Assembly (NCBI RefSeq): GCF_013128195.2
Contig: NZ_CP053452.2
Span: 6,200,001-6,264,000, forward strand
Direction: 5' to 3'
Length of the DNA: 64,000 bases
From: Frigoriglobus tundricola
GTDB taxonomy: Bacteria; Planctomycetota; Planctomycetia; Gemmatales; Gemmataceae
The translations under genes and the position numbers were made by a program. The notes under the pieces were generated by a model. The model was not told the DNA's origin. It saw nothing but the letters and a program-made list of their open reading frames with translations, and made no database searches. Of the stretch, positions 26,497 through 40,035 are shown one piece after another; the first letter of the stretch is position 1; every line of letters begins with the position of its first letter.

Positions 26497-26993
26497 ATGC
26501 GGGAATGAAACGCGGCTTCCAGCGCTTGTCGGCCAACCCCGAACGTCCCGCTGACATCAGAGATTCCGGCGAGGGGATTCGCGGACACCTCCAACGTTTT
26601 CGTGCCAAGCCGGTCCTTCGTTCCGTTCGGGGTCGAGCCAATTACCAGTCATCGGCCTACGACGTGTTCTGGAGGGTAAGGACCCACCAGCGGCCCGATT
26701 GCGGGCGCCTACGCTGCGAGAGTTGCAGGCGCTTTCCGGTCGGATCGTGTGCTCTGTGGCGGAACGGCGGAACGGCGGAACGGTGGGGAGGGCTTCTCCG
26801 GTTTCCTTATCGGTCGCAATTTCTTAGACTGACACATGTGGTTCCTCACCCGGCCGGGAAAGTCGCGTTGCACCGTCTGTTTACGGTCGCCGGGGCATCA
26901 CAACAGCCCCCCAGCAATCGGTCGTAAAATGAACGGTAAACCTGAATGGGCGCAAGTTGGATAATAGCGCCGAGCTCTGGAATTTTCAGCTAT
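26497..26993. other. Non-coding stretch including the probable native tRNA-Sec promoter
   Basis: No supported gene. A short tandem repeat (CGGAACGGC, about three copies) lies around 26760-26785. GGATAAT around 26959-26965, about 30 bp before the truncated tRNA copy at 26994, could be a -10 element of the original tRNA-Sec promoter. Confidence 0.45.
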
Positions 26994-27034
26994 GGGAGTG
27001 TTTGCACGGCTGGTGCCGGCCCAGGTCTTCAAAA
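26994..27034 (+). repeat. Left attachment site: truncated tRNA-Sec 5' half
   Basis: The segment from GGGAGTGTTTGCACGG to CTTCAAAA is identical to positions 1-41 of the intact tRNA-Sec at 39723. Similarity also extends upstream (ATTTTCAGCTATGGGAG against ATTTTCAGCTTTGGGAG). Identity stops in the anticodon loop, so this copy cannot form a tRNA. Confidence 0.9.
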
Positions 27035-27747
27035 GCAGACTAGACTGTTTTCGCATTCCCGCATGTAAGTGCAGGACGCCAGGATTTCTAGCGTTTTCTT
27101 CGTTTTTCGTGAATAGCTCGAAAAGCCTAAAATGACCTCAAATGGCTCCTTGCGGTAGTAATTACTACCGGTCAGTTCTCACCTTTGCATGGGGCTTCGC
27201 CCCCCGACCCCCCCGAAGACCGAAGAGTCGGGAGGGATCACGTCTGACGAAGTGGCTTCTCTTCAGCGGCTCGGGGCGTTGAGCGGGAGATGTGCGGGGC
27301 ACCGGCGAGGACGGCCGGTGCAGAAAGGCACGGTGCGGCCGTTCGCTCTGCTTCGGCCCTCCAAAGTTCATTATAGCTCGCATTCGCTCGCTGACATGAA
27401 CTTTGGGGGCCTCCGCTGCGCTCACCCCGGGTGACCAAAACTCGACGCATCGCACGGCCTTGCGGCCGGCTCTTGGACGGGGTGGGGTTCGGGGTCGGCG
27501 AGAAGGGTGGCGTGGGGCTCTGCGCCGGCAGGAGGCCGGCGGTGGCTCCGCGGCCGGATGCCGCGCCCGTGGCGTGGGGCGCTTTGTCTCGCAAAGTTTG
27601 CGATGCGAAAATGCAGGAAAAACAAGCATTTTCTGCTTGCGCGAGGCGCAAAAACTGATAAAATGTACACCAGTGATGAAACGATGCCGCCGCAGTGCGC
27701 TAACACTGCGGCGGCGGCCCAACCCCTGAGTGAAGCAGGAGCAGGCA
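27035..27747. other. Non-coding left end of the island
   Basis: No convincing gene. It begins with AT-rich sequence and a poly-C/G stretch near 27190-27240. It contains a hairpin with CCAAAGTTCA and TGAACTTTGG arms at 27361-27405, and the left arm of a large inverted repeat whose right arm is at 28243-28394. Confidence 0.5.
27686..27715 (+). terminator. Strong 12-bp hairpin upstream of the small island gene
   Basis: GCCGCCGCAGTG (27686-27697) and CACTGCGGCGGC (27704-27715) pair perfectly around a six-base CGCTAA loop. It lies 32 bp before the start at 27748, so it could be an attenuator or leader hairpin rather than a terminator. Confidence 0.5.
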
Positions 27748-27987
27748 ATGAAAACTGTAACGCGGGTGCGCGCACACAGCAAGGCGCGCAGGAAGAGGCA
27801 CAGCCCGCACACCCGGCACCTGCTGCGGCTGGTGCGGGAATTCTCCTGGTGTGTCATGCTGGTGCCGAACTTCGGCCCGGTGAAAATTACCAAGCGGGAA
27901 GCGCGCTACCAGATCCGCACTCGCGGCGACCAACTGACCTACCAGCGCGTGGGCCGGGACATGCTGCTGGAAGTTCTGCCCTGGTAA
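27748..27987 (+). CDS. Small basic hypothetical protein
   Basis: The 79-residue frame starts MKTVTRVRAHSKARRKRHSP after a good ribosome site (AGGAGCAGGCA). The N-terminus is strongly basic; the remainder (REFSWCVMLVPNFGPVKITK, then ARYQIRTRGDQLTYQRVGR) looks like a small beta-rich domain. I do not recognise the family. It lies inside the large inverted repeat at the left end of the island, away from the replication genes and on the opposite strand. A nucleic-acid-binding role is only a guess from the charge. Confidence 0.5.
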   Translation: MKTVTRVRAHSKARRKRHSPHTRHLLRLVREFSWCVMLVPNFGPVKITKREARYQIRTRGDQLTYQRVGRDMLLEVLPW

Positions 27988-28430
27988 TGCGGCCCGCGGC
28001 TCGGCCGGCAGGACGCCGGCCGTGCTGCCCGGCAGGATGACGGCCAGGAGCACGGAGAGCAACCCGGGGCGCGGGGCAACGGCGGACGCGGCCCCGCAGC
28101 CGCCCGGGACGCACCGGCGCCGGCATCCGGCCGCGAAGACACGCCGGCCTCCTGCCGGCGGACAAGCACACGGGGACCGCGAGAGCCCACAACACCCCCA
28201 CCGCCTTTCTCTTCTCTTCCCACACCCCTCTCAACTCACTGCGAGCGCAGCGGAGGCCCCCCGAAGGCGAACAAACCGGCTGTCAAGGGCCGGGCCGGCT
28301 TTGCGGCCCGGAGCGAGGCTTTGCGAGCGGTCCCTTGACTGCCGAGTTAGTTTGGAGCCGAGGGGGCCGGAGCGGAGCGAGCCGCCGCACCGTGACTTTC
28401 CGCGGCAGCAAACAACGGGTGCTTTGGTAT
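27988..28430. other. GC-rich non-coding stretch
   Basis: No supported gene. It holds CCGGC-rich short repeats (27990-28160), the right arm of the inverted repeat that starts at 27329, and a nested pair GTCAAGGG/CCCTTGAC between about 28280 and 28338. Confidence 0.5.
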
Positions 28431-29876
28431 TTATTGATCGAATGCGCGGTTGATCGGCCTGCTTTGAATTGCAGGACCTAAATCAATGTCGATCACCCGT
28501 TCGCTTCGGGTTTTATCCGTCCCCTGTGGGTTGGCTTTGTCTCGCTCGTTGAAACACGCATAGTTCTGAATGATTTCGAGCCAGCGTATGGCTTTCGGCT
28601 CCTCACAACTCAAAACCCAGATCGTACTGACCCGGTCTCGGTTATCAAAAAACCAATTGAAAATTCGTTGCGAATTAATTTTTTCGTTGTACGGATCGTC
28701 TTCTTCGTTTTTGACAGGTATCGGTTGGTCCGGCGCGGGTGCCGGAAAGGTTTTGGGTAAATCATCAATAACCACGGCACGGGGCGTGAAAGGGCAGTAT
28801 GCGAGGGGATCGTGCGGGTCGCGCGCGAACCGTTTCCACCGGCTCAGTTCGTCGGGACCCTCCATAAGCTTGTTCGCGGTGAAGTAATAAACCGCCTTGC
28901 GGCGCACCGCGAATTCCGCTCCTAACGCCGTTGCGAGGGCGCTGCGGTTCACGGGCCAACTGCCCCGGATGACACAGTGAACGACGGGGCCGCCACTCGC
29001 GGTGTGGTTAAAAAACAAGAGCGTTTGTTCTTGCATTCGGGTGCGAGCCTTGTTTTGGTCGGCCTGTTCATCTTCGGAAAGGCCCTCCGGCGAAAAGACC
29101 CGATCCGTTCGGAAGTGGCTCAGACGCACCCACCCCGAAGGCAGATCGGATCGGTCGAACGTGCCCTTTTGCTCGGTCCACCACTCGTAATGGCGTACCC
29201 CCAGGCCAATGGCCGTTATCAGGGCGAATACACTCAACCATCGACGGTGCGGGAAAAGCCGTTCAGGAAGGAACGCCACGATCGCCCACAAGCAGGAGAC
29301 GAAGCGGGTGAGGAATTCACAGCCTCTCCGGACTAGAATCCTGACTGCCCCGAGGCCAGTCGAGCAGTTGTGCGTGTCAGCGGTAGGAGCACCGACGCGA
29401 ATGGGCTCTATCGGGTTGGGGTGTACCGCACGCACGAACAGGACTTGCGCGAACAACATGCCCAAGTACCAAAAGGTCAGATCAGTGAATTTGTCGTGCC
29501 AGAAATCAAGCCAATCGATCGGAAAGTTTTTACTTGATAAAGTTGTGAATATATAATCAAACGGTAGCTTGCAAGCGGGGATCAGAAAGGGTAGCGAATA
29601 CCGGAGCCACGGGTGCTGGGTCCATAACCGGTGAACGGGGCGAAACCACTTTCGCCATCCGGCGGGCGGTGATGCGGCGCCCGGAACCTCGGGGGCCTTG
29701 TTCCCTGCGGCCCCGCTCCGGCCGATCGCGATGGCGAGAAAAAAGCCCATCGTCGTGTGCGCCATTTGGTTCGAGAGCCAGCTGTATGTCGCCGTGTAAG
29801 CCTGAAACTCATCCGAGCCAAAGCACGAATTGCGCAAACTCGTGAATACACGAAAAACGAGGTTGTCGTTTGTCAT
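28431..29876 (-). CDS. Membrane protein with degenerate AAA-like P-loop domain
   Basis: This 481-residue protein has several hydrophobic helices in its first 230 residues (MAHTTMGFFLAIAIG, LRYSLPFLIPACKLPFDYIF, LTFWYLGMLFAQVLFV, WLSVFALITAIGLGV). The C-terminal half is soluble and keeps the layout of a P-loop NTPase. VVHCVIRGSWPVNRSALATA occupies the Walker A position but lacks the GKT/S lysine, RAVVIDDLP resembles Walker B, and TIWVLSCEEP resembles a sensor-1 strand. I do not recognise a named family, so this is inference from pattern. It is the last of three same-strand cargo genes after the tyrosinase. The start MTNDNLVF at 29876 is chosen over an upstream extension of 27 residues. Confidence 0.65.
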   Translation of the reverse strand: MTNDNLVFRVFTSLRNSCFGSDEFQAYTATYSWLSNQMAHTTMGFFLAIAIGRSGAAGNKAPEVPGAASPPAGWRKWFRPVHRLWTQHPWLRYSLPFLIPACKLPFDYIFTTLSSKNFPIDWLDFWHDKFTDLTFWYLGMLFAQVLFVRAVHPNPIEPIRVGAPTADTHNCSTGLGAVRILVRRGCEFLTRFVSCLWAIVAFLPERLFPHRRWLSVFALITAIGLGVRHYEWWTEQKGTFDRSDLPSGWVRLSHFRTDRVFSPEGLSEDEQADQNKARTRMQEQTLLFFNHTASGGPVVHCVIRGSWPVNRSALATALGAEFAVRRKAVYYFTANKLMEGPDELSRWKRFARDPHDPLAYCPFTPRAVVIDDLPKTFPAPAPDQPIPVKNEEDDPYNEKINSQRIFNWFFDNRDRVSTIWVLSCEEPKAIRWLEIIQNYACFNERDKANPQGTDKTRSERVIDIDLGPAIQSRPINRAFDQ

Positions 29877-30009
29877 GGCTGCCGTGGTCGGGAGGTGCGG
29901 TTGATGAACTGAACGAAGACGGGGCGGGGCGTTGCACGTCCCGCCCCGGCAAGACACGCTGGGCGCAGCTCAACAGCTACGCCGGGGCTCGACAAACAGC
30001 AGGCACGGT

Positions 30010-30774
30010 TTACGGGCCGAACGGAGCGGCGGTTGGGGCCGCATCGGACTCGCTCGATGTGAGCGTTAACCGCTCGAAGACGACGGGGGTATTCAGTGGC
30101 TCACCATCGGCCCCGAAACCAACAACGCCGATGCTGAACTGATTTGGGTCAAACCACTTCGTACCCGACAAGCGGCTCACAACCGGGGCAAGATCCCAGA
30201 TGTAATCGCAGGGCTTCCCTGAATCCTCGCTCGACCCGAGCGTCACGTATCCAATGTAGCCCTTATGGTCTGTGGATGTGGGAAGCGGCGCGCCCGGCTG
30301 CAAGATGTACACGCGCGCGCGCATCGTTGGGAACTCGGGTAACACAACGCCCTCCAAGTGCAACTCCAACGGGAATGCCCCCTCAGAAACATGTGCCGCT
30401 GTGTTCTCTCGGAGGCGCGCAAGCAGTCGTCCACTCGGCTTCAGCACGGCCGTGTAAATCGGAATGTCGGCCGTCGGTGCCAGGGGACGTGACGTCGCAA
30501 ACGAGGTTGCTGCGTGTGGGGGGGGTATCTCGTCGTCGAGGTTCCGTCGATACGCCCGGCCCCGGTCGCAATAAGGGGACACCCGCTTGTGAAACGGAGC
30601 CGATGGCCACGCATGAAGCGGATCAGATTGCTGTTCGCGAACCAGACGATCGTCTTTCTCTTTTCGCGCTTTCATCCACTCCCGAGCCGCCCCGGTGCCG
30701 AGGGCGATAAAAGAGGCGGCTGCGACGAACCACACCAGGAGCGACCATTTTCTGCCTCGTGTGTTCTCGGCCAT
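30010..30774 (-). CDS. Membrane-anchored protein resembling the tyrosinase C-terminal domain
   Basis: This 254-residue protein has one N-terminal transmembrane helix (WSLLVWFVAAASFIALGTG) after a short basic segment, giving a probable N-in anchor. The outer part (residues 110-245) is a beta-rich domain with YIGYVTLGSSEDSG and WDLAPVVSRL. Its order of strands is reminiscent of the C-terminal domain of polyphenol oxidases, and the neighbouring tyrosinase has a comparable tail. It may be a split or accessory tyrosinase partner, but this is inferred from position and a weak pattern. The start MAENTRGRK at 30774 is used; the longer frame lacks support. Confidence 0.6.
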   Translation of the reverse strand: MAENTRGRKWSLLVWFVAAASFIALGTGAAREWMKARKEKDDRLVREQQSDPLHAWPSAPFHKRVSPYCDRGRAYRRNLDDEIPPPHAATSFATSRPLAPTADIPIYTAVLKPSGRLLARLRENTAAHVSEGAFPLELHLEGVVLPEFPTMRARVYILQPGAPLPTSTDHKGYIGYVTLGSSEDSGKPCDYIWDLAPVVSRLSGTKWFDPNQFSIGVVGFGADGEPLNTPVVFERLTLTSSESDAAPTAAPFGP

Positions 30775-30980
30775 AAACGTGCCTCGGGCGAAAGGACACT
30801 TAGGTTGTATCGACACAAACGCGGACGAGCTAAAACGTATCCTTGTAATCGATGAAGTCCTCAAAAAAAAGCAGAGCTTTTTGCGTGCAGAGCGACTATA
30901 AAGCAGACTTCATGATCCCATTTCGCACCTTGCGTTAATCTTCCTGCGTGTGTATTTTACACGGTTTCTTCACCTGGTTT

Positions 30981-32417
30981 TTAAGTTTGCTCCGCTATTT
31001 CGACCGAAATGCGTCGGATCAAAGCATCTGGCGCGTCGCTCCACCAGCCTTCGGCGACACACGTTACAGTAATAGTGGCATCCTCTTTCACTTCGAATTT
31101 CGCCAGCGTCTTCCCGATGTCGAGGATGTATTCCTCCTTGGGATCGTCTTCCTTGTGAGCAGAGTGCGGTGAGAAGAAGGAAATGAAGCCAGCGTAAGAC
31201 GGGTCTGTGACCCGTGTGCTTGAGTTGGCGTCGGGGTTGTTGACAAAGACGCGAACCCGGCCGCCCCCGTGTGGCACGCTCTGAAATTCGATACGCACGC
31301 GAGATTCAACATGAGTTCCTTTTTTTGATGATTCAGCCAGATTATCTCTCAGATTCTTCAGAAAAACGTTGCTCGGCTTGAGCGTCATCACAGCCGGCCG
31401 TTTGATATTGAGCGCGGCCCCGAGTTCCTGTTCGGCGGCATTTACGGCAGAGGCATTGACATTGAGGAATTTCACGACAGAATCCAACCGCTTGGCGCCG
31501 GTTTTCGCCTCCTCCTTTGCGAACTCGTCGTAGGTGTATCCGAGGTCGTATGTCGAGAGACAGTCCTCAACAAAAATAGATTTATCCACGGCGTTGACAG
31601 TCACGAACTCGAATTTGGTGGCCGCCCATGAGTTACCTTTTTGACTGGGCCACTGTTTGGTCCGCCCTTTCAATTCTGTGACGCACCACCGCATCCAGAT
31701 ACGGTCGAGATTGGCATGGTGTACCCAAAAGAGCGGGTCCAGGGCGGCCCGGTTGCCGAACATGGCGCTGTGTTTGTCCCCCTCCCTGGCGGCTCGGCCA
31801 ACGTATTCGTGGATGATGTTATGCGGGCCGCCTTCGATACCGCCAGCTGCCCCTGGTGTTCGTGAGTCATTCGCTTTCAGATCGGTCGCGGTCCCCCCGA
31901 ACGAGCGAAAACTGGACGTGGCGAGAAGGTCACTGATCGCCTTCGAGCCGATGTCTGCCTCTGTCGGAAAATCTTTACCCTTAAGTGCGCGATCTTCGAA
32001 ATACAGCGGACTCTTCTTATCGAGAAACCGCTGCGGCACAGCCCGGTCCGTGGACCAGTCCCAGTAGGGCAAGGCAAAGCTTTCTTTTGTTAATTTGCGA
32101 CAAAGCACTTCAAAATAGTATAGGTAGGCACGGTGCCACGGAAAGAAAAACCAGTTCCTATGAGCGCAGCTCGTGTTGTGAAAATTTGCAAACTGATTAT
32201 ACCCCAAATTGTTCTTTTGATTCTTCATTTCTATGATAGCCGATTCGAATAACTCCCATTCTTCTTTTGTTAGCTTGCTCAAATTTTTCCGTTGTGCAAT
32301 GTTTTTCCCAGGGGCACTGTGCCGTCGGGGCGTGGCCGCGCCAACCGGTGCTAGCGGCCGGAGGATCGGCAGGGCGCATCCCGATGCTGACACGCCTAGG
32401 AACTCGCGGCGATTCAT
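30981..32417 (-). CDS. Tyrosinase / polyphenol oxidase, Tat-exported
   Basis: This 478-residue type-3 copper enzyme is expected to oxidise phenols to o-quinones outside the cytoplasm. The N-terminus MNRREFLGVSASGCALPIL is a twin-arginine signal with RR followed by EFLG. The CuA histidines lie in ANFHNTSCAHRNW and FFPWHRAYLYYFE, and the CuB histidines in GGPHNIIHEYVG and DPLFWVHHANLDRIW. The C-terminal third (residues about 330-478) is a beta domain like that of plant-type polyphenol oxidases (VRVFVNNPDANSS). The gene and its neighbours have lower GC than the rest of the window, which fits recent acquisition within the island. Confidence 0.88.
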   Translation of the reverse strand: MNRREFLGVSASGCALPILRPLAPVGAATPRRHSAPGKNIAQRKNLSKLTKEEWELFESAIIEMKNQKNNLGYNQFANFHNTSCAHRNWFFFPWHRAYLYYFEVLCRKLTKESFALPYWDWSTDRAVPQRFLDKKSPLYFEDRALKGKDFPTEADIGSKAISDLLATSSFRSFGGTATDLKANDSRTPGAAGGIEGGPHNIIHEYVGRAAREGDKHSAMFGNRAALDPLFWVHHANLDRIWMRWCVTELKGRTKQWPSQKGNSWAATKFEFVTVNAVDKSIFVEDCLSTYDLGYTYDEFAKEEAKTGAKRLDSVVKFLNVNASAVNAAEQELGAALNIKRPAVMTLKPSNVFLKNLRDNLAESSKKGTHVESRVRIEFQSVPHGGGRVRVFVNNPDANSSTRVTDPSYAGFISFFSPHSAHKEDDPKEEYILDIGKTLAKFEVKEDATITVTCVAEGWWSDAPDALIRRISVEIAEQT

Positions 32418-32929
32418 GTAAACCCCTGAGTGGCAGCTCACGACGTCTTGTTGCAGCTATGTGAGGGGGAAGTGTAGCCAGCAGCGGTCGGCAGAGCAAG
32501 CAGAACTCCAAAAAAGATGCATACTTCTTCTAATGAATTCCGCTTACGTCAGTAGATGCGTTATTAATGCACGCTATGACGTGTTGCAGATCGGATGCGG
32601 CTACTGTTTTTTGCGGTATATCGTTCTGAACGGGCCGGTGCGGCGAGCACCGGTGATCAGAATTACACATACCTCCCATCGTATCCTCTGGTTGTGGCGA
32701 CAGACGGGCTTCTATTAAGTCTGCAAACCGCGCGCCTGACCTCTGATCGCGTTTGAGATCGCAGTCACCTGCTGAATGCGTTGCAGACCAGGCTCATCTC
32801 CGGGTTGCTCGCAAGCTGACGACAGCCGCCGACTCCCAATTGAACGGCGAGACTCGTCTCAGAGAAGGAGTCGTGACTTTCTCGAACGGATCTGAAAAGC
32901 GGCACAATGGACAACAGCCGACCGCGCCA
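32418..32929. other. AT-richer spacer between replication and cargo genes
   Basis: No supported gene. A hairpin at 32624-32662 combines TTCTGA/TCAGAA with CCGGTGC/GCACCGG arms around GGCGA. The stretch must contain the promoter for the leftward tyrosinase block and the end of the polymerase transcript. Confidence 0.5.
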
Positions 32930-35900
32930 TCACCCCACCCATGTCTGCCCGATCGTCACCTCCACTTCGACTGCTACTGGTGCGATCGTTTCCTCCAGCG
33001 CTTCCACCATGCACCCCCGCAGCCAGTCCGCCGCCGCCGGCGCGTCGGCCTCCGGCGCCTCGATCACGATCTCGTCGTGACAGAACAGCACCGGCACCGC
33101 CGCCGGGCACTCGGCCCGGCGCTCCCACAGGAGCGCAATCGCGGCCTTCAACCCGTCGGCGCCCGTGCCCTGCACCGGCGTGTTCAGCGCGTCCTGCTTG
33201 TTCGCGTACAGCGCGCCGTCGGCGCTCCGCTTCGCGACCGGCAGCACCCGCCGCCGACCGCCGAGCGTTCGGACCTCGTGCGTGCCGGTCGGATCGGCCC
33301 GGAAACGCGCGGTCACGTCGGCCCCGACCCGGGCGTGCCACGCCCGGAGCGCCGGGTAGGCCGTGAAGAACGCGTCCCGGTAGCTCCGGGCCTGGGCGTC
33401 GGTGAGCGTCACCCCGTAGTTCGCCTGCGCGTACTGCCGGAGCCCCTTCCAACCCATGCCGTACAGCAAGCCGAAGTTCACCGCCTTCGCCAACTGGCGG
33501 TCGGCCTTCGTCACGGCCGCTTCAGGCTTCCCGAGCACGCGGGCCGCGGTGAGCGTGTGCAGGTCGCGCCCGTCCCGGTACGCCGCGATCATCACCGCCT
33601 CGTCCGCCACCTTCGCCGCGATCCGCAGTTCGATTTGCGAATAGTCGGCCTTCACCAGCACGCACCCGGGCCGCGCCACGAAGCACCGGCGGTACTCGGA
33701 CCCCCGCGGGATCTGCTGAAGGTTGGGGTCGGAACACGACATGCGCCCGGACTCCGCCCCGAGCTGGTTCCACGAGGGCAGCACCGCCCCGCCGGCGGCG
33801 TGCGCCTCGACCCACGCCCGGCCGTAGGTGCCCACCCGCTTCGCGCACCCGCGGTACGCGCGGAGCAGCCCGGCGAGCGGGTGGTTCACCCCCGCGAGCG
33901 TGTCGTCGTCGGTCGCGTCCACACTCACGCCGACCTGCGCGAACGCGTCCTTCACCTGCTGCGGGCTGTCCCAGTTCCGCGTTTCCATGCCGGGCAGGCC
34001 CGCGGGGTTCGGCGCCAGGGCGTCCATCGCGTCCGCCAGCCGTGCCCGCTCGGCCCCGGCCGCGTCCGCGAGCGCGAGCCACGCCGGCACGTCCACCGCG
34101 ACCGGCGCGGCCCACGCGATGCCGGGCAGCGCCCGCATCTCCGTCTCCGCGATCGCGGACAGGTCCGCCGCCGCCAGCTTCTCCTTCAGTGCCGAAGCGA
34201 GCGGGACCAGCACCGCGGCATCGTCCGCGGCGTAGCGGATCTGCGCGGCCGTAAGCCGTCCCGACCAGTCGGACGCCTGGTGGTCCTTGTCCAGTTCGCG
34301 GCCGAGTTCCCGCGCGACAACGTCCCCGAGGCCGTGCTTGAGGCGGGCGCCGGTCCCGTCGCGCCGGCCGGCGTGCCGCACGCGACTCGCGAGCATCGTG
34401 TCGAACACCCGCCCCGGCACGAACCCGAGCGGGGACAAGAACCGCAGATCGAATTGCGCGTTGTGGCCGACGATCTCCTTCCCGGCCAGCGCCGCGAACA
34501 GCGGGGCCAGATCACCCCGAGGGTTCGCGAGCGCGAAGACATCGACGACCGCCACGTCTTCACCGACCGCGACCTGGATCAGCCGCACCCGGTCCGTGCG
34601 CGGGTCCAGGCCGGTCGTCTCGGTGTCCAGGCCGATCGGCCCCGCCCACCCCGTCAGCGCGTCTACCAGCGTCCCGACCCCGGCCGCCGTGGTGATGACG
34701 TGCGGGGCCGGGACGGGTGTGACACTCGGCCCCTCCGGTGCGGGACACTCGGCCCCGGCGGGCGCGGGATGATCGTGACGTCGATTTTCGGTTGTGCGGT
34801 CCTGCGTGACGCGTGACACTTCATACTCTTGCTCGCCCCATCCCTCGGCGCCGCGGTCGCATGCTTCGGTACTGTCGGACTTTACGGTGCCGGGGGCGAG
34901 TTCGGGGCCGGGCGACGGGTCCGGCCCTCCGGGGCGCGTGTCACACGTCCCCCCGTCACCGCTATCGTCCTCCTCGCCGGGGCGAGTGTATGAAGTGTCA
35001 CGCGTCACGCAGGGGCGAGGGGCGGGAACGAAGTAGGTCGGTTGCCACCCCCCGGCCGGACGTTCCGGGGCGGGCTCCCAGGTGCCGAGATCGAGGGCCA
35101 CGAGCTTCTGAAGATCGGCCCGTGCCAGCTCCGGGGTGGTGTACTTCCGCTGATTGGACCGCTGGAAGGTGCGAACGGTGACCCGCCCCTCGTTGCGGGC
35201 GGCGATGCGGGCCACCAGCTCCGCCAGCTTGCGGACCTCGGACTCGGCCGCGGACTCGGCCAGGAGCGCGTACACCCGCTCCGCCTCGTGCGCGCACCAC
35301 TCGGCCAGCCGAATGCCCGCCTCCAGATCATCCAGACCGATGGGTGCGGCGGAGGGCGGAACCCCCCACTCGCTCCCGGGCGGAGCCCCGCTCGGCGTGC
35401 CGGCGGTGCGGACCAGGTGCCGGACCAGCGCGAACCGACCGGGGAGGGCTTCGAGCTTCGCCAGGACCGCGGCCCGCGCCCCCTCGGCCTCGAACTGGCG
35501 CAGGCCCCACGCGTTCACGAACCGCTTCAGTCGCGCCTGCGCCGCCGGGGCCAGCGGCACCACGACGGGGCACCCGTCGCCGTCCGCGTCGGGGGCGCTC
35601 TGAAGGGCGAAGAGGGCGTCGAGCGACCGCTGCGCCGCGTCCCGGGTCGCGGCGGAGATCGCGTCGTCGCTCCACGTCTTCGGGGTCCGGGGCGGCATGG
35701 CGAAGATGATCCGGGCCACCAGGCCCGACTCGAACAGCGCGTGCGAGGCCAGCCGCTTGAGGACGCCGGGCTGGATGCCCCCGGTGATGCTGGTGGCCGC
35801 GTGGGGGACGAACACCTGCGTCTTGTCGCCCGTCTTGCGGTCGTAGATGATCGCGTCGGCCCGGTGCATCGAGAGCCAGTTCGGCTCGTCCGTTCCGCCG

Positions 35901-36556
35901 CCGCCCTTGTACTTCGTGAAGCTGCCGAACCACCCGGCCAGCTCGTCCCGGGCCACGAGCAGGCCCCGCCGGTTGTCGTCGTGGAGCCCGGCGAGCTTCT
36001 CGACGGTCACGTCCGCGACCACCACGCGCTCCAGGTTCGGTTTCTCGGGCTCGTCGCCGGCCCCGTCCGAGTCCTTGAACGCCTTCCGGTTCCGCTTGTA
36101 CTCGGTCAGCGCGTCCGTGTGCGCCTTCACGAGCCGCTTCTGACGTGCCCGCACCAGGTCGAGGCTCAGGTTCGCGGCGGCGGTCTTCATGCCCCCGGAC
36201 TCGGCGACCGGGCACGTCCACAGGACCGCGGGCTCGAACCACTCGCCCCCCAGGTGGGCGCGCCGCGTGTTCCCGACCGCGCCGGCGAGCACGGCCAGGA
36301 GCGGCAGGGCGATCAGGGACGCGTCGCACTTCAGCGCGGCCGCGCCCTCGCGAACGAACGCGCTCCACGGCGCGGGCAGACAGTCCGTGGGGAACGGGAC
36401 GAACTCGGGAATCGGGGCGTAGCGCTCGGGCGGGACGGGGGCCGTTTCATACCGGCGCCCGTCGCCGAAGACGACCCGCGGAGCGGTCGGCGGGACGCCC
36501 AGCCCGTCCGTCACCGCGCCCACGACGGCCGCGCCGTGCGCGCCGAGGAGCGTCAC
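32930..36556 (-). CDS. DUF3987 helicase-like domain fused to PolA-type exonuclease and polymerase
   Basis: As read, this frame encodes 1,208 residues. Residues about 30-470 match the DUF3987 helicase/primase-associated domain, with a P-loop-like VAESGGMKTAAAN. After a low-complexity linker comes a DEDD 3'-5' exonuclease (about 638-800: GLDTETTGLD, GHNAQFDLRFL, YAADDAAVL). The rest is a family A polymerase: motif A DYSQIELR near 972, motif B RQLAKAVNFGLLYG near 1020, and motif C CHDEIVIE near 1157. All catalytic residues I can identify are present. The frame opens at a GTG, but its upstream continuation (ADPFTGWPTLVTLLGAHG) joins the PrimPol gene after one base is removed, so it is probably the larger part of a single protein. 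It likely replicates the island. Confidence 0.9.
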   Translation of the reverse strand: MTLLGAHGAAVVGAVTDGLGVPPTAPRVVFGDGRRYETAPVPPERYAPIPEFVPFPTDCLPAPWSAFVREGAAALKCDASLIALPLLAVLAGAVGNTRRAHLGGEWFEPAVLWTCPVAESGGMKTAAANLSLDLVRARQKRLVKAHTDALTEYKRNRKAFKDSDGAGDEPEKPNLERVVVADVTVEKLAGLHDDNRRGLLVARDELAGWFGSFTKYKGGGGTDEPNWLSMHRADAIIYDRKTGDKTQVFVPHAATSITGGIQPGVLKRLASHALFESGLVARIIFAMPPRTPKTWSDDAISAATRDAAQRSLDALFALQSAPDADGDGCPVVVPLAPAAQARLKRFVNAWGLRQFEAEGARAAVLAKLEALPGRFALVRHLVRTAGTPSGAPPGSEWGVPPSAAPIGLDDLEAGIRLAEWCAHEAERVYALLAESAAESEVRKLAELVARIAARNEGRVTVRTFQRSNQRKYTTPELARADLQKLVALDLGTWEPAPERPAGGWQPTYFVPAPRPCVTRDTSYTRPGEEDDSGDGGTCDTRPGGPDPSPGPELAPGTVKSDSTEACDRGAEGWGEQEYEVSRVTQDRTTENRRHDHPAPAGAECPAPEGPSVTPVPAPHVITTAAGVGTLVDALTGWAGPIGLDTETTGLDPRTDRVRLIQVAVGEDVAVVDVFALANPRGDLAPLFAALAGKEIVGHNAQFDLRFLSPLGFVPGRVFDTMLASRVRHAGRRDGTGARLKHGLGDVVARELGRELDKDHQASDWSGRLTAAQIRYAADDAAVLVPLASALKEKLAAADLSAIAETEMRALPGIAWAAPVAVDVPAWLALADAAGAERARLADAMDALAPNPAGLPGMETRNWDSPQQVKDAFAQVGVSVDATDDDTLAGVNHPLAGLLRAYRGCAKRVGTYGRAWVEAHAAGGAVLPSWNQLGAESGRMSCSDPNLQQIPRGSEYRRCFVARPGCVLVKADYSQIELRIAAKVADEAVMIAAYRDGRDLHTLTAARVLGKPEAAVTKADRQLAKAVNFGLLYGMGWKGLRQYAQANYGVTLTDAQARSYRDAFFTAYPALRAWHARVGADVTARFRADPTGTHEVRTLGGRRRVLPVAKRSADGALYANKQDALNTPVQGTGADGLKAAIALLWERRAECPAAVPVLFCHDEIVIEAPEADAPAAADWLRGCMVEALEETIAPVAVEVEVTIGQTWVG

Positions 36557-37361
36557 GAGCGTGGGCCAGCCGGTGAACGGGTCGGCGGGCGCTCGCGGCG
36601 AACGTGGACCGCACGCAGCCGGTGCGGTCGCGCGCCTCCTCGTCCCGGGCCGCGGCGCAGACCGCGGTCACGAACGTCACCGCCGCGTCTTCCCGCCACC
36701 CGGCCCGCCGCAGCCCGCCGGCGAGCGCGAGCGAGGGCGCGCCGTGCCGGCTCGAGCGGGGCCAGTACCGGCCGAGCAGCGCCGCGGCGGCGACGGCCCG
36801 GACGGCGGTTCGCAGCGCGTCGGCGCCAACGCCGGCGGGCTCCCCGTGCGCCTGCCACACGAACCGCTCGGGCTCCGGGTGCCCCTTGTCGGGGTCGGCC
36901 CCGTACACGGACGGGGCGACGACGGTTTGCCCGCCGGTCGAGCGGAGTTCGAGGAGCGGCGCGCCGGTGACGGGGTCCTTGAGCGCGTCGGACGCCTTCG
37001 CGGGCGGGTCGGCGGCGACGTAGAAGTAGTGCGAGTTCGGGGCGCTCTGCCGGCCGCCGATCATCGCGGTACGGGGGAGCAGGTGCGGGGCGGCCCGGCG
37101 CGCCTCGGGGCAGTCCAGATCGACATCGACCAGCCCGCCGGAGGGGGCGCCGAGCCGGATGCCGATGTTGGCGCCGTCGGGGAACAGGGTGTCAATGGTG
37201 TCGTCTGAAAGGGCGAGCCGGTCCCAACCTTCGAGGGGCCGGTTGCGCGCGAAGCTCCAGGGCTTCTTGCCGTGTCGGGCGAGTGGCACGGCCTGTCGGC
37301 CGTCCCGGAGGTAGTGCCGGGCGGCGGCGGCGGCGGTCTTGATGTGGCCGTTGGTGGTCAT
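36447..37361 (-). CDS. Bifunctional primase/polymerase (PrimPol) domain, frame broken at its end
   Basis: This frame starts MTTNGHIKTAAAAARHYL and carries an archaeo-eukaryotic primase-like PrimPol domain. Residues 20-60 form the typical opening (AVPLARHGKKPW, FPDGANIGIRLG), the catalytic acidic pair is in GGLVDVDLDCPEA near 80-90, and a histidine strand is in SAPNSHYFYV. After CVRSTFAASA (about residue 262) this frame turns into Arg-rich non-protein-like sequence, while the neighbouring frame gives DPFTGWPTLVTLLG and continues into DUF3987. The frame switch sits at GCGCCCGCC around 36586-36596. The start overlaps the preceding stop by four bases (ATGA), suggesting translational coupling with the small upstream gene. 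Confidence 0.85.
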   Translation of the reverse strand: MTTNGHIKTAAAAARHYLRDGRQAVPLARHGKKPWSFARNRPLEGWDRLALSDDTIDTLFPDGANIGIRLGAPSGGLVDVDLDCPEARRAAPHLLPRTAMIGGRQSAPNSHYFYVAADPPAKASDALKDPVTGAPLLELRSTGGQTVVAPSVYGADPDKGHPEPERFVWQAHGEPAGVGADALRTAVRAVAAAALLGRYWPRSSRHGAPSLALAGGLRRAGWREDAAVTFVTAVCAAARDEEARDRTGCVRSTFAASARRPVHRLAHARDAPRRARRGRRGRGDGRAGRPADRSAGRLRRRAPV

Positions 37362-37561
37362 TGCGCCCCCCCTTTCCGATCGAGGAGGGTGAGCAGGTCC
37401 AGCGCCTCATCGGCGGGCCAGTACGGTTCGCCGTCCGGGCCGACGTGCCGCACCGGAAGCTGGTGGACGCGCGCCCCCTCGGCGCCGAGCGCGATCAGAT
37501 CGGCACGGGTAACGGGGGGCGGGGGGTTGGTATGGGTGCTGCTGTCCGCGAAGTCGTGCAT
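37358..37561 (-). CDS. Small island protein upstream of PrimPol
   Basis: A 67-residue protein beginning MHDFADSSTHTNPPPPVTRA and containing RVHQLPVRHVGPDGEPYWPA. The C-terminal part (ADEALDLLTLLDRKGGA) is helical. Its stop overlaps the PrimPol start by four bases (ATGA), so it belongs to the replication operon. I do not recognise it; small adaptor-like proteins often precede PrimPol genes in integrative elements. The frame is open further upstream to 37618, and the start is uncertain because no good ribosome site is seen. Confidence 0.55.
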   Translation of the reverse strand: MHDFADSSTHTNPPPPVTRADLIALGAEGARVHQLPVRHVGPDGEPYWPADEALDLLTLLDRKGGAQ

Positions 37562-37902
37562 GGTGAGGCGCGTGTGGGTGATTGGGGGTTCCGCCGGGGG
37601 GCGGTGTGGTGTGCGCACCGCCGTCCCGGCGTTTCGGGGTTCACTTGTAGAACTCGATGACGTCGGCCGGTCGGGGCCGGCGGCGCGCGCGCGCTCGGGG
37701 GCGGGGTGCCGGCGCGGCGGGCCTCGAACGCCGCGAGAGCGGCTTCGGAGACGCGCCAGCGCGGCTTTTTGGAGCGCGGGGAGCGCGAGACGTTGACGGC
37801 CGGCAGCTCGCCCGCCCGGATCCAGGCGAGCACGGTTGCCGGTCCCACGCCGAAGCGCTCGGCCGCGTCGCGGACCGTGAGCGCCGGGCGGTCAGTCGGC
37901 AT
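37495..37902 (-). CDS. Excisionase-like helix-turn-helix protein, probably frameshifted
   Basis: The N-terminal 65 residues (LTVRDAAERFGVGPATVLAW, then IRAGELPAVNVSRSPRSKKPRWRVSEAALAAFEARRA) form a MerR/excisionase-type winged HTH that binds DNA during recombination or regulation. After GTPPPSARAPP this frame continues as Pro/Arg-rich sequence to 37495. The adjacent frame instead ends cleanly at 37641 with RRRPRPADVIEFYK, the expected short tail, so a frameshift in the GCGC/C-rich tract near 37685-37710 is likely and the true product is about 87 residues. Its start overlaps the end of the next HTH gene. Confidence 0.75.
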   Translation of the reverse strand: MPTDRPALTVRDAAERFGVGPATVLAWIRAGELPAVNVSRSPRSKKPRWRVSEAALAAFEARRAGTPPPSARAPPAPTGRRHRVLQVNPETPGRRCAHHTAPRRNPQSPTRASPCTTSRTAAPIPTPRPPLPVPI

Positions 37903-38104
37903 GAGCGCGGTCCCCCGGTTGAGCCGGCAGATAGCCGGCCTTGACGAGTGCGGCGCGGACCAGCTCCACGTCCTCCGCGGCGATGAGGCGCTGGTTGCCG
38001 GCCAGAGCGAACGGGATGAGCTTGCGCTTGCAGAGGTTGGTGATGTGGTGGGGCTGAACGCCCAGCTTCACCGCGAGCGGCCCGGGCGTGAAGAACTTCT
38101 GCAT
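37892..38104 (-). CDS. Small helix-turn-helix DNA-binding protein
   Basis: A 70-residue protein beginning MQKFFTPGPLAVKLGVQPHH. The sequence LAVKLGVQPHHITNLCKRK is an excisionase/MerR-type HTH, and PFALAGNQRLIAAEDVELVR fits the wing and helix of HTH_17 proteins. It lies between the integrase and the other HTH gene on the same strand and overlaps the latter by 11 bases, so the two are co-translated. It is probably the recombination directionality factor or a regulator of the replication operon. The open frame upstream of 38104 is long but not protein-like. Confidence 0.8.
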   Translation of the reverse strand: MQKFFTPGPLAVKLGVQPHHITNLCKRKLIPFALAGNQRLIAAEDVELVRAALVKAGYLPAQPGDRAHAD

Positions 38105-38341
38105 GTCGTCCTCGGCTGTGGTGACCAACGCCGAAGCCACTCGCTTCGACGTTACACGGCCGATGGCAGGGCACGAACCGGGGTGCTTGAAGGGGGTGCG
38201 GGCGGGCGCGAACCGGTCACGAGGGGGCTGCGCGAACCTGTCAATTCCCGTCAGGGGGCGGCGGGGCACCGGCCCGCGTGTCCCCGACCGGCGGCGCGGG
38301 CCGGCTGCCGGTCGGGGCACGCGGCGCGAGGGAGAGGCCCA

Positions 38342-39562
38342 TCAGGGGGCGGCGGGTGAACCGGGCACCGGCCAGAGCCATGTGCGGACGTGTTCGGCCA
38401 CGGCCTTCAACCGGACGTCGTCAACGTGTTCCCGGTACGTGGCGGCCATCGACGGGTCCGCGTGGCCCATGATGAGGTCCACCGCGATCTGGTCCTTCGA
38501 GCCGCCGGCCACGGTCTCGAAGACGTGCCGGAGCCCGTAGAACCCGAGTTGCTTTCGGTAGATCCCGGTGGACCGCAGCATCGCCTTGAACCGCTCGGCA
38601 ATGAGATCCTTCGTGTGCCCGGCGGCCGACCGCGTCACCAGCATCGTTCCCGCTTCGGACAGGAGCGCCCGCTCCACGTCGCGGGGCCGCGCGGGCTTCG
38701 CCCGCTCCGCGAGTGCGGCCCGGAGCGCGGCGACCGTTTCCGGCCACAAGTAGCAGCGCCGGGCGATGCCCGTTTTGGGCCGGGGGAAGTCGATCCAGCC
38801 GGTTTCCAGATTGACGGCGCTCATCGGCAGCTCCGCACAGTCCGCGTTGCCGAACCCCGCGTTGACCCCGAGCAGGACCACTGCCTTCATCAGCGTGTCC
38901 GGGGCTCTGTCGAGCAGCTCCCGCACCTCTTCGGCTGTGAAGATCTTCGGTCCACTCTTGGCCTTGTGACGGCGCAGGACCGCTTGGTCGGGCTTCTTGA
39001 ACTCCGGCCCGTACCGAACCGGCCGATCGAGAAGCGCCGCCTCGTAGCCGTACTTGAAGACCGATTTCGTGCGGGTGATGCTGTTCCCCAGGCGGACCGG
39101 CCCCCACTTTTTCGCCATCGCGGCCCGGAGCGCGGCGAAGTCGTCGGCCGAGAGGTCGCTCACCACACGGGTGCCGCCGAACTGCTTCACGAGCCAATCC
39201 GTGGTCACCTTGTAGTCGTAAAACAGCATCGAGGACATCTCGCCGGCGTCCACCTTCCTCTGCTTGGCCGTGAGGAAGCTGTTGCACAAGTCCTTGACCG
39301 TGAGCCCGTCGGTTTGTGTCCTGGGCGCGCGGCCCGCGTGCAGGTCATCGGCAACGGCCTTGTACTCTCCAAGGGCCTCCTTCCAGCCGTCGCCTTCGGT
39401 CGGGATCAGAACGCCTTCGAGGCGGCGCGCCCAGGCCCCGAAGTAGTGGATCTGGCCGCGAATCTTCTTCATCCATTTGCCGCTCGCGTGCGGAGTGAGC
39501 GGAAACGTCGGGTACGGCTTCTTCGGTTTACGGAGCGCGGGCGACTTCTTAGACTTGGGCAT
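38342..39562 (-). CDS. Tyrosine recombinase (integrase) of the island
   Basis: This 406-residue phage-type integrase has a basic N-terminus, a SAM-like core-binding domain (about 95-190) and a C-terminal catalytic domain. The box II region is YGLRHVFETVAGG, and the last box is MGHADPSMAATYRE with the nucleophilic tyrosine. The usual box I arginine is not found; that place reads GVNAGFGNADCAELP, which recalls a planctomycete integrase subgroup. It lies 160 bp from the tRNA-Sec gene with its start facing the tRNA, the standard position next to the attachment site. The start at 39562 has a GAGG ribosome site. Confidence 0.92.
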   Translation of the reverse strand: MPKSKKSPALRKPKKPYPTFPLTPHASGKWMKKIRGQIHYFGAWARRLEGVLIPTEGDGWKEALGEYKAVADDLHAGRAPRTQTDGLTVKDLCNSFLTAKQRKVDAGEMSSMLFYDYKVTTDWLVKQFGGTRVVSDLSADDFAALRAAMAKKWGPVRLGNSITRTKSVFKYGYEAALLDRPVRYGPEFKKPDQAVLRRHKAKSGPKIFTAEEVRELLDRAPDTLMKAVVLLGVNAGFGNADCAELPMSAVNLETGWIDFPRPKTGIARRCYLWPETVAALRAALAERAKPARPRDVERALLSEAGTMLVTRSAAGHTKDLIAERFKAMLRSTGIYRKQLGFYGLRHVFETVAGGSKDQIAVDLIMGHADPSMAATYREHVDDVRLKAVAEHVRTWLWPVPGSPAAP

Positions 39563-39722
39563 ACGGAACCTCGCTCGGGCGGGGTGAAGTGCCGTTGCCC
39601 CGGCCGTTCACGGCGGCCGGGGCAACAATACGTCCGTATAGTGTACCGGTAGTAAAGCGGGTAGTAAACCTAAGTAGGTGGTGAAAGGACAGCAGTCGCA
39701 AAATGCTGGGATTTTCAGCTTT

Positions 39723-39817
39723 GGGAGTGTTTGCACGGCTGGTGCCGGCCCAGGTCTTCAAAACCTGTGGGGGGTGTGAGCAACGCTCCCAGTGGGTTCG
39801 ATTCCCATACACTCCCG
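39723..39817 (+). tRNA. selC: Selenocysteine tRNA, anticodon UCA
   Basis: The 95-nt gene has an 8-bp acceptor stem (GGGAGTGT with ACACTCCC), a 5-bp anticodon stem CAGGT/ACCTG around loop CTTCAAA (anticodon TCA), an 8-bp variable arm (GGGGGTGT with ACGCTCCC, using G-T pairs) and a T arm GTGGG-TTCGATT-CCCAT. The 8+5 acceptor/T geometry, long variable arm and UCA anticodon identify tRNA-Sec. The first 41 nt are duplicated at 26994, marking this as the island's integration target. CCA is not encoded. Confidence 0.95.
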
Positions 39818-40035
39818 CTGTACAGTTGTTTGATTGGTTGCAGGTGCTCGCGCCGAACCGCAGAACGTTGCAGAAACTCCAGCATTCTCGCGTTTCCGCC
39901 GCTGTCGTGCGATTCACCGCGTGTAGCTGTTGCGCCGCTGTTTGCGCCACCCGTGTGCCGCTTCCTTGCGGCTATTTGGCAGCGCCGGCCACCAGCGTTT
40001 GCGGCCGTTCGGTCCCGGTCCACACAACCGCTGAT

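Follow-up and report, generated by a model that had tools for sequence, protein, structure and literature searches.

Most elements that target tRNA genes retain the original tRNA promoter (Williams 2002, quoted in PMC8371274). Integration through the 5′ half of the gene (5′ mode) is itself already known, both from the genomic islands collected by Islander and from archaeal pTN3. The available parts of the Islander report (PMC4383910) give 5′ fragments of tRNA genes (tDNA) for 159 of 3919 islands and describe anticodon-centred sites as common (2083). Excerpts on the pTN3-like integrases of Thermococcales describe a chromosomal attachment site (attB) made of a tRNA 5′ half, with 41 bp, anticodon included, shared with the attachment site of the element (attP) (PMC8371274, PMC5495485), a situation said to be seldom met in bacteria (PMC8371274). 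Here, we analysed a window of 64,000 nucleotides from the Frigoriglobus tundricola chromosome (contig NZ_CP053452.2, positions 6,200,001 to 6,264,000), in which a 12,729-bp block ending within the tRNA-Sec gene is, with high probability, a lambda-type integrative element inserted on the upstream side of that gene and holding its 5′ half, through the anticodon loop, in attP. The features on which this reading is built are given below in window coordinates.

39723-39818, plus strand: tRNA-Sec (UCA), complete copy (ARAGORN; Rfam RF01852).
39706-39763, plus strand: right attachment junction, tRNA side (5′ half and 17 nt upstream), a copy of the 58-nt repeat.
26977-27034, plus strand: left attachment junction, far side (displaced 5′-half copy), a copy of the 58-nt repeat.
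27035-39763, no strand: integrated element, 12,729 bp, with boundaries suggested by the repeats.
38342-39562, minus strand: tyrosine recombinase (integrase) of 406 amino acids with arm-binding, core-binding and catalytic domains (PF00589, alignment, structure model).
39648-39666, plus strand: P-arm pair GGTAGTA lying between the integrase and the tRNA, its two copies starting 12 nt apart (motif; putative binding site).
27154-27169, no strand: P′-arm pair GGTAGTAATTACTACC in inverted orientation, located some 120 nt inward of the far junction (motif; putative binding site).
26775-26993, no strand: scar of an older 5′-mode element (alignment), with an integrase N-terminus (ATG at 26837, minus strand) and decayed arms (26920-26940), running into the left 5′-half copy.

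The two copies of the direct repeat differ by 2 mismatches, lie 12,729 nt apart from start to start, and contain an exact core of 42 nt (26993-27034 and 39722-39763) that begins 1 nt 5′ of tRNA-Sec and stops 1 nt beyond the 7-nt anticodon loop, with similarity extending 17 nt upstream of the tRNA 5′ end. The original prediction that the first 41 nt of tRNA-Sec recur exactly some 12.7 kb upstream was thus right for the tRNA part, the full exact run being 42 nt. The tRNA scored 74.7 bits with RF01852 (gathering score 47) and was the sole one that ARAGORN detected within the window. Between 26500 and 40000, the next-longest direct repeat among the 20 of 24 families listed was 34 nt at 71%, and across the whole genome, the tRNA queried together with the DNA downstream of it gave a single extra 5′-half copy (threshold E 1e-8). 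Chance is not a serious option for the origin of this repeat. In the extent given above for the element, the right-hand copy is counted as part of it; tRNA-Sec would accordingly be element-derived up to ~39763, while its 3′ part would stem from the target gene.

Relatives of the integrase yielded 36 matches in 16 of the 59 genomes searched, the window's included, and 30 loci were kept. A wider set of 100 loci comprised 79 from GTDB (the list being the best 80 of 166 candidates) and 21 from IMG/VR, six of the 100 repeating integrases of the first 30. Removal of redundancy left 118 integrase loci, the window's included: locus L229 was merged with L228, and a further 11 loci were dropped for at least one 50-mer in common with a kept integrase, among them L064, L065, L067, L187 and L238, which share 7-39 50-mers with kept integrases and are probably distinct. 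The tRNA 5′ end faced the integrase start at all 30 loci kept from the window's genome and those related to it, and in 70 of the 100 GTDB and IMG/VR loci, where 29 had no tRNA, 1 had a far one and none presented a tRNA 3′ end. In the non-redundant set this orientation held at 91 of 118 loci, the other 27 had no tRNA within 600 nt, and a 3′ end facing the integrase was seen in 0 of 118. The tRNA genes used by the family cover 23 anticodons and start 88-505 nt from the integrase (median 194, over the 100 loci before deduplication). GTDB titles name Planctomycetota in 76 of 79 cases, and three metagenome-assembled genomes titled Nitrospira or Nealsonbacteria are perhaps misbinned. Integration in 5′ mode is a family habit of this integrase clade. 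Both the predicted integrase adjoining the tRNA within the 12.7-kb block (a PF00589 protein whose start codon lies 160 nt from tRNA-Sec) and the predicted upstream-side insertion, with a common block that ends at the anticodon loop, were borne out, the latter by the same geometry at the 91 loci, a second tRNA-Sec case in genome G010 and viral contigs with a lone 5′ half.

Within the DNA covered, a displaced 5′ half was found for 11 of 25 integrase-tRNA pairs, 12.7-38.9 kb away; these 11 elements amount to 12 far repeats, the tRNA-Thr of genome G008 carrying two, each with an integrase, as a tandem array. The tRNA-Arg-CCU of G000 became a 12th case once more DNA was read, with its far repeat at ~49.5 kb, and partial matches at the G000 tRNA-Trp, which may be other tRNA genes, were left uncounted. 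Displaced 5′ halves were also evident in 5 of 69 further loci. The repeat ended 4-7 nt past the first anticodon base in 15 of 16 elements, and 10 nt past it in L151. The second tRNA-Sec case, that of G010, is an island of its own (28.3 kb, 45-nt repeat), and L172 is a third tRNA-Sec locus.

The attachment sites themselves follow a common plan. Of 91 upstream regions, 68 contained an identical 7-mer pair spaced exactly 12 nt apart, where shuffled sequences gave 0.85; no other spacing between 7 and 40 nt was seen in more than 8. Measured back from the end of the anticodon loop, the first arm started at 112-118 nt in 53 of the 77 loci that allowed measurement, at 122-125 nt in 7 and at 134-138 nt in another 7, groups that would fit helical phasing. 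Within an element, the arm heptamer between integrase and tRNA is found again inside the far end, and its sequence varies from one group of elements to another: GGTAGTA in the window, G010 tRNA-Sec, G008 tRNA-Met and G005; GGTTGT in G000 tRNA-Leu; and GGTGTCA, GGTGTAG or GGCGTCA elsewhere. When the ends of 11 elements were permuted, none of 2000 permutations reached the summed heptamer matching of the true pairing; taken singly, elements that share a motif tie with one another. Of 30 tRNA-less loci, 5 had a lone 5′ half on the upstream side of the integrase; in the IMG/VR contigs L228, L231 and L232 it belongs to tRNA-Lys, halts at the anticodon loop and is flanked by arm pairs on both sides (by eye). 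To judge from this order of arms, tRNA-Lys 5′ half and arms, these three contigs hold uninterrupted attP sites. A far-end terminator acting as a general insulator was considered and rejected. Hairpins of at most −8 kcal/mol together with a T-run were present in 8 of the 17 far ends, against none in 20 shuffles of each; in the window the hairpin is weak (−6.7 kcal/mol, matched in 2 of 20 shuffles), and its GGTAGT relatives mostly lack one.

That the window simply belongs with ordinary 3′-mode islands lying downstream of their tRNA, the upstream 5′ fragment being a coincidental or unrelated partial duplication of the gene, is hardly credible. Islands of that kind do exist at tRNA-Sec in the genus, with 3′ copies 15 kb (G015) and 18.5 kb (G001) downstream and TGLR-motif integrases beside the tRNA-Sec 3′ end in G015, G001 and G018. 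Yet the complete tRNA, queried against the whole window, found the 5′-half copy only and no 3′ fragment, the window integrase sits on the 5′ side, none of the 118 loci has a tRNA 3′ end facing the integrase, and the arm motifs pair the two ends of the element. Homologous recombination or segmental duplication around the tRNA, instead of site-specific integration, could draw on the several tRNA loci whose flanks match differing places in relatives, but we hold it to be very unlikely because almost every element has its repeat end at the anticodon loop, arm geometry is conserved, attP occurs in viral contigs and the integrase is always located at the same end.

The left copy could also be the native 5′ end of the chromosomal tRNA, left behind by one insertion only, as in the original prediction, which took the DNA left of 26994 for native tRNA upstream DNA. 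A long open reading frame (ORF) ending at 26463 further out, TPR/CHAT-like by eye and unlike the element genes seen here, is in keeping with this possibility. We nonetheless judge it unlikely, and that part of the prediction was not supported, since the 260 nt at 26775-27034, left copy included, are 71% identical to the integrase-side end of the element (39499-39763); within them, an integrase start (ATG at 26837, MCQSKKLRPIRKPEKPSPPF) and the decayed arms align with their counterparts in the present element. Moreover, a scar-like left flank accompanies 7 of 17 far repeats and is absent at the other 10. Rather than pristine chromosome, the left copy is a scar that a previous element of this type left behind. 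The 5′ half of tRNA-Sec was thus replaced at least twice, and elements arrive serially at the same rebuilt gene, the newest adjoining the tRNA 3′ half, so that the host's original 5′ half and promoter are unrecognisable here. A relative that never carried either element would not, on these grounds, show 26775-26993 before its tRNA. The window's left flank beyond the 5′ half was found in none of the 18 other genus genomes searched.

Serial integration in 5′ mode can be pictured as follows. The element would come with an integrase of its own, an excisionase-like protein and genes for replication, together with an attP in which element DNA precedes the tRNA-Sec 5′ half (through the anticodon loop) and arm-type sites for the integrase lie on either side. 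Presumably bound at these arms, the integrase would recombine attP with the resident tRNA-Sec, exchanging strands inside the anticodon loop, and could reverse the process upon excision. tRNA-Sec would thereby be rebuilt beside the integrase with a 5′ half and upstream region given by the element, and the old 5′ half pushed to its far end, this gene having undergone two or more such events, the present insertion included. The chimeric tRNA-Sec that had been predicted stands as regards an element-brought 5′ half and upstream DNA, for which the geometry of the 91 loci, G010 and the viral contigs all argue; as regards the promoter, the element may supply it, and tRNA-Sec would then be transcribed from element DNA. 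Across loci, a TATAAT-like hexamer preceded the tRNA by 10-20 nt in 14 of 91 cases against 3.25 in shuffles (at most 5), and a two-box promoter score was slightly above that of shuffles (7.18 versus 7.04, SD 0.08).

Several observations weigh against this account. No consensus promoter was evident in the attachment region of the window, where the best match (7/12) equals about the shuffled mean. Fourteen of the 25 integrase-tRNA pairs lacked a clear far repeat in the DNA covered, six of them on stretches shorter than 10 kb and one with a repeat later found beyond 40 kb. By BLAST, 25 of 30 tRNA-less loci had no recognisable 5′ half, the integrase or its start sitting at a contig end in six of these; L164, L178, L188, L206, L212 and L225 keep arm pairs (by eye) followed by non-tRNA DNA, which suggests that the clade is perhaps not bound to tRNA genes throughout and that other targets are possible. 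The reading of the G010 tRNA-Sec integrase contains one stop codon, and that copy may be dead. An uninterrupted tRNA-Sec with both the left and right flanks of the window was found in none of the relatives searched, nor was a clean empty site among 19 genus genomes, the window's own included, queried with the window flanks, the G010 left flank and the flanks of other elements. The best partial one is the tRNA-Arg-CCU of G010, where the 256 nt that end with the 5′ half share 85.5% identity with DNA ending in the far repeat of a 38.9-kb island in G008 and continue into a complete tRNA; the outer flanks do not match. Finally, downstream of tRNA-Sec G010 and G008 are 92-96% alike, and a common left flank resumes over 31 kb upstream; in between, each has ~30 kb of almost wholly unshared DNA, with a single 137-nt piece in common.

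The integrase is a tyrosine recombinase by both fold and Pfam Phage_integrase match (PF00589, E 2.5e-07, 31.1 bits, cut-off 27.1). Its structure model (mean predicted local distance difference test score, pLDDT, 92.6) gave lambda Int (1z1b), Tn1549 Int and XerA as top PDB matches and includes N-terminal strands at 29-54 that correspond to an arm-binding domain; this domain and the paired heptamers at both ends assign it to the lambda-type integrases that would bind arm sites. In an alignment of 119 rows, in which some integrases are present twice, the column of the first catalytic arginine (Arg I) holds Gly in 112 and Arg in none, and the box-II His is Tyr in 112. The remaining catalytic columns are largely kept (Lys263 in 119, Arg345 in 117, His367 in 114, Tyr376 in 115), and Asp241, Arg261 and Lys263 are invariant. 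Profile alignment likewise places the Arg I of XerA on this same Gly. The family therefore lacks the complete RKHRH pentad with Tyr nucleophile, which is usual and not universal, exceptions being described in the available part of PMC8138268. Loss of Arg I was discarded as the cause of 5′ mode, because the distant relatives L236 and L238 (30 and 29% identity) also lack Arg I and adjoin a tRNA 3′ end, which was identified in their integrase-side DNA by eye and by BLAST, respectively; this loss alone does not make 5′ mode. The integrase had no match among 50,697 phage and 72,556 plasmid annotated records. In a quick tree, whose long branches make deep joins unsafe, it clustered with integrases at tRNA-Ser, tRNA-Met and tRNA-Ala.

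Moving away from the tRNA, the integrase is followed by a matchless ORF, a helix-turn-helix (HTH) protein, a small ORF, a primase-polymerase, a polymerase fusion, a tyrosinase and two more matchless ORFs.

37892-38320, minus strand: short ORF of 142 amino acids adjoining the integrase, no family match in family searches.
37495-37902, minus strand: excisionase-like HTH protein (TIGR01764 at 29.1 bits, cut-off 28.8; phrog_66; HTH_17).
36447-37361, minus strand: primase-polymerase (Prim-Pol), by family search.
32930-36556, minus strand: fusion of DUF3987, 3′-5′ exonuclease and family A DNA polymerase, by family searches.
30981-32441, minus strand: cargo, tyrosinase/polyphenol oxidase-like (PF00264).
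30010-30864, minus strand: cargo ORF, no family match in family searches.
28431-29957, minus strand: cargo ORF, no family match in family searches.

No structural PHROG was detected among eight window proteins scanned, a set that leaves the tyrosinase aside, and the element thus does not classify as a temperate phage. Near its far end lies a 40-nt inverted repeat (27320-27359 and 28364-28403, 85% complementary, 1 kb apart) with shorter nested pairs.

Both modes of integration meet at some tRNA genes of the genus. At tRNA-Arg-CCU of G008 (L243, G008:C1:7264001-7277000, with L104-L105), the 38.9-kb 5′-mode island lies upstream, and on the downstream side a TGLR-motif integrase and a displaced 3′ half (49 nt, 90%; 11.2 kb from the gene) delimit a 3′-mode island of ~11 kb, so that both halves of the gene look element-supplied. 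The TGLR-motif integrases at the tRNA-Sec 3′ end mentioned above belong to L081 (G015), L068 (G001) and L084 (G018), and their reading frame enters the tRNA; the G001 region that contains the downstream 3′ copy also encodes a protein 39% identical to the DUF3987/polymerase ORF of the window, which suggests that a replication module may be common to 3′- and 5′-mode elements. Just upstream of tRNA-Sec in L069 (G002), DNA resembling an integrase start (by eye) faces the tRNA 5′ end and is possibly another scar; no relative of the integrase was found in G002 at E 1e-20. Loci with elements at tRNA-Thr, tRNA-Arg(UCU) and tRNA-Met in G008, G010 and G013 have flanks that match differing places in relatives, a shuffling that could reflect integrase-driven rearrangement, by analogy with what the available text on pTN3 proposes (PMC5495485). 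L041 (G013) and L040 (G008) have an unusual tRNA-Ala or tRNA-Met beside these integrases and similar tRNA pieces near, which may represent an element-borne tRNA cluster.

We regard as somewhat more probable than not the broader view of a phylum-wide bacterial clade specialised in tRNA 5′ halves that serially replaces the promoter and 5′ half of many host tRNA genes, drives essential or single-copy tRNAs from mobile-element DNA and, together with 3′-mode islands as at tRNA-Arg-CCU of G008, builds whole genes from two elements. In the literature searched, which left most subscription papers outside, we found no planctomycete or phylum-wide bacterial clade using 5′ mode. Its use at 23 anticodons implies that keeping the tRNA promoter is not a mechanical need, and makes the clade a natural test of the limits on tRNA-gene targeting. 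Were the element to provide the promoter, tRNA supply in Planctomycetota would be controllable by mobile elements and would change on excision. The clade further offers integrases in which the customary first catalytic arginine is missing, and an attachment code that is simple to read: paired heptamers spaced by 12 nt, whose distance is nearly constant apart from smaller groups placed ~10 and 20 nt farther away.

Compared with described systems, the locus falls within the Islander 5′-fragment class, in which a 5′ tDNA fragment lies upstream of a complete tRNA, in the same orientation and at 2-200 kb, with the integrase inside (PMC4383910); that class is a minority in the survey, whose available parts name no devoted integrase clade, attP anatomy or serial replacement. 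The available description of IntDes integrases (PMC8138268) reports an arm-binding domain, a shifted first catalytic Arg and a first His replaced by Tyr; the resemblance rests on that description, which covers Desulfovibrio only and gives their function as unknown. The same source has some IntCTnDOT members dispense with Arg I and use a downstream Arg, much as Arg I is lost here; these are conjugative transposon integrases, and targeting of tRNA 5′ halves goes unmentioned in the part available. In mycobacteriophage tRNA-dependent lysogeny, as far as the available text of PMC10865867 goes, host tRNA function in the lysogen is likewise phage-dependent, but there a whole tRNA is carried and the gene is not rebuilt, whereas here half is supplied and the gene would be rebuilt. 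A further parallel in mode is pTN3, where, according to the excerpts cited above (PMC8371274, PMC5495485), the tRNA is also rebuilt yet parted from its original promoter. However, pTN3 integration is described as disrupting its own integrase gene, whereas here the ORF at 38342-39562 is uninterrupted, attP lies outside it and arm pairs are lambda-like; pTN3 is archaeal, this element bacterial.

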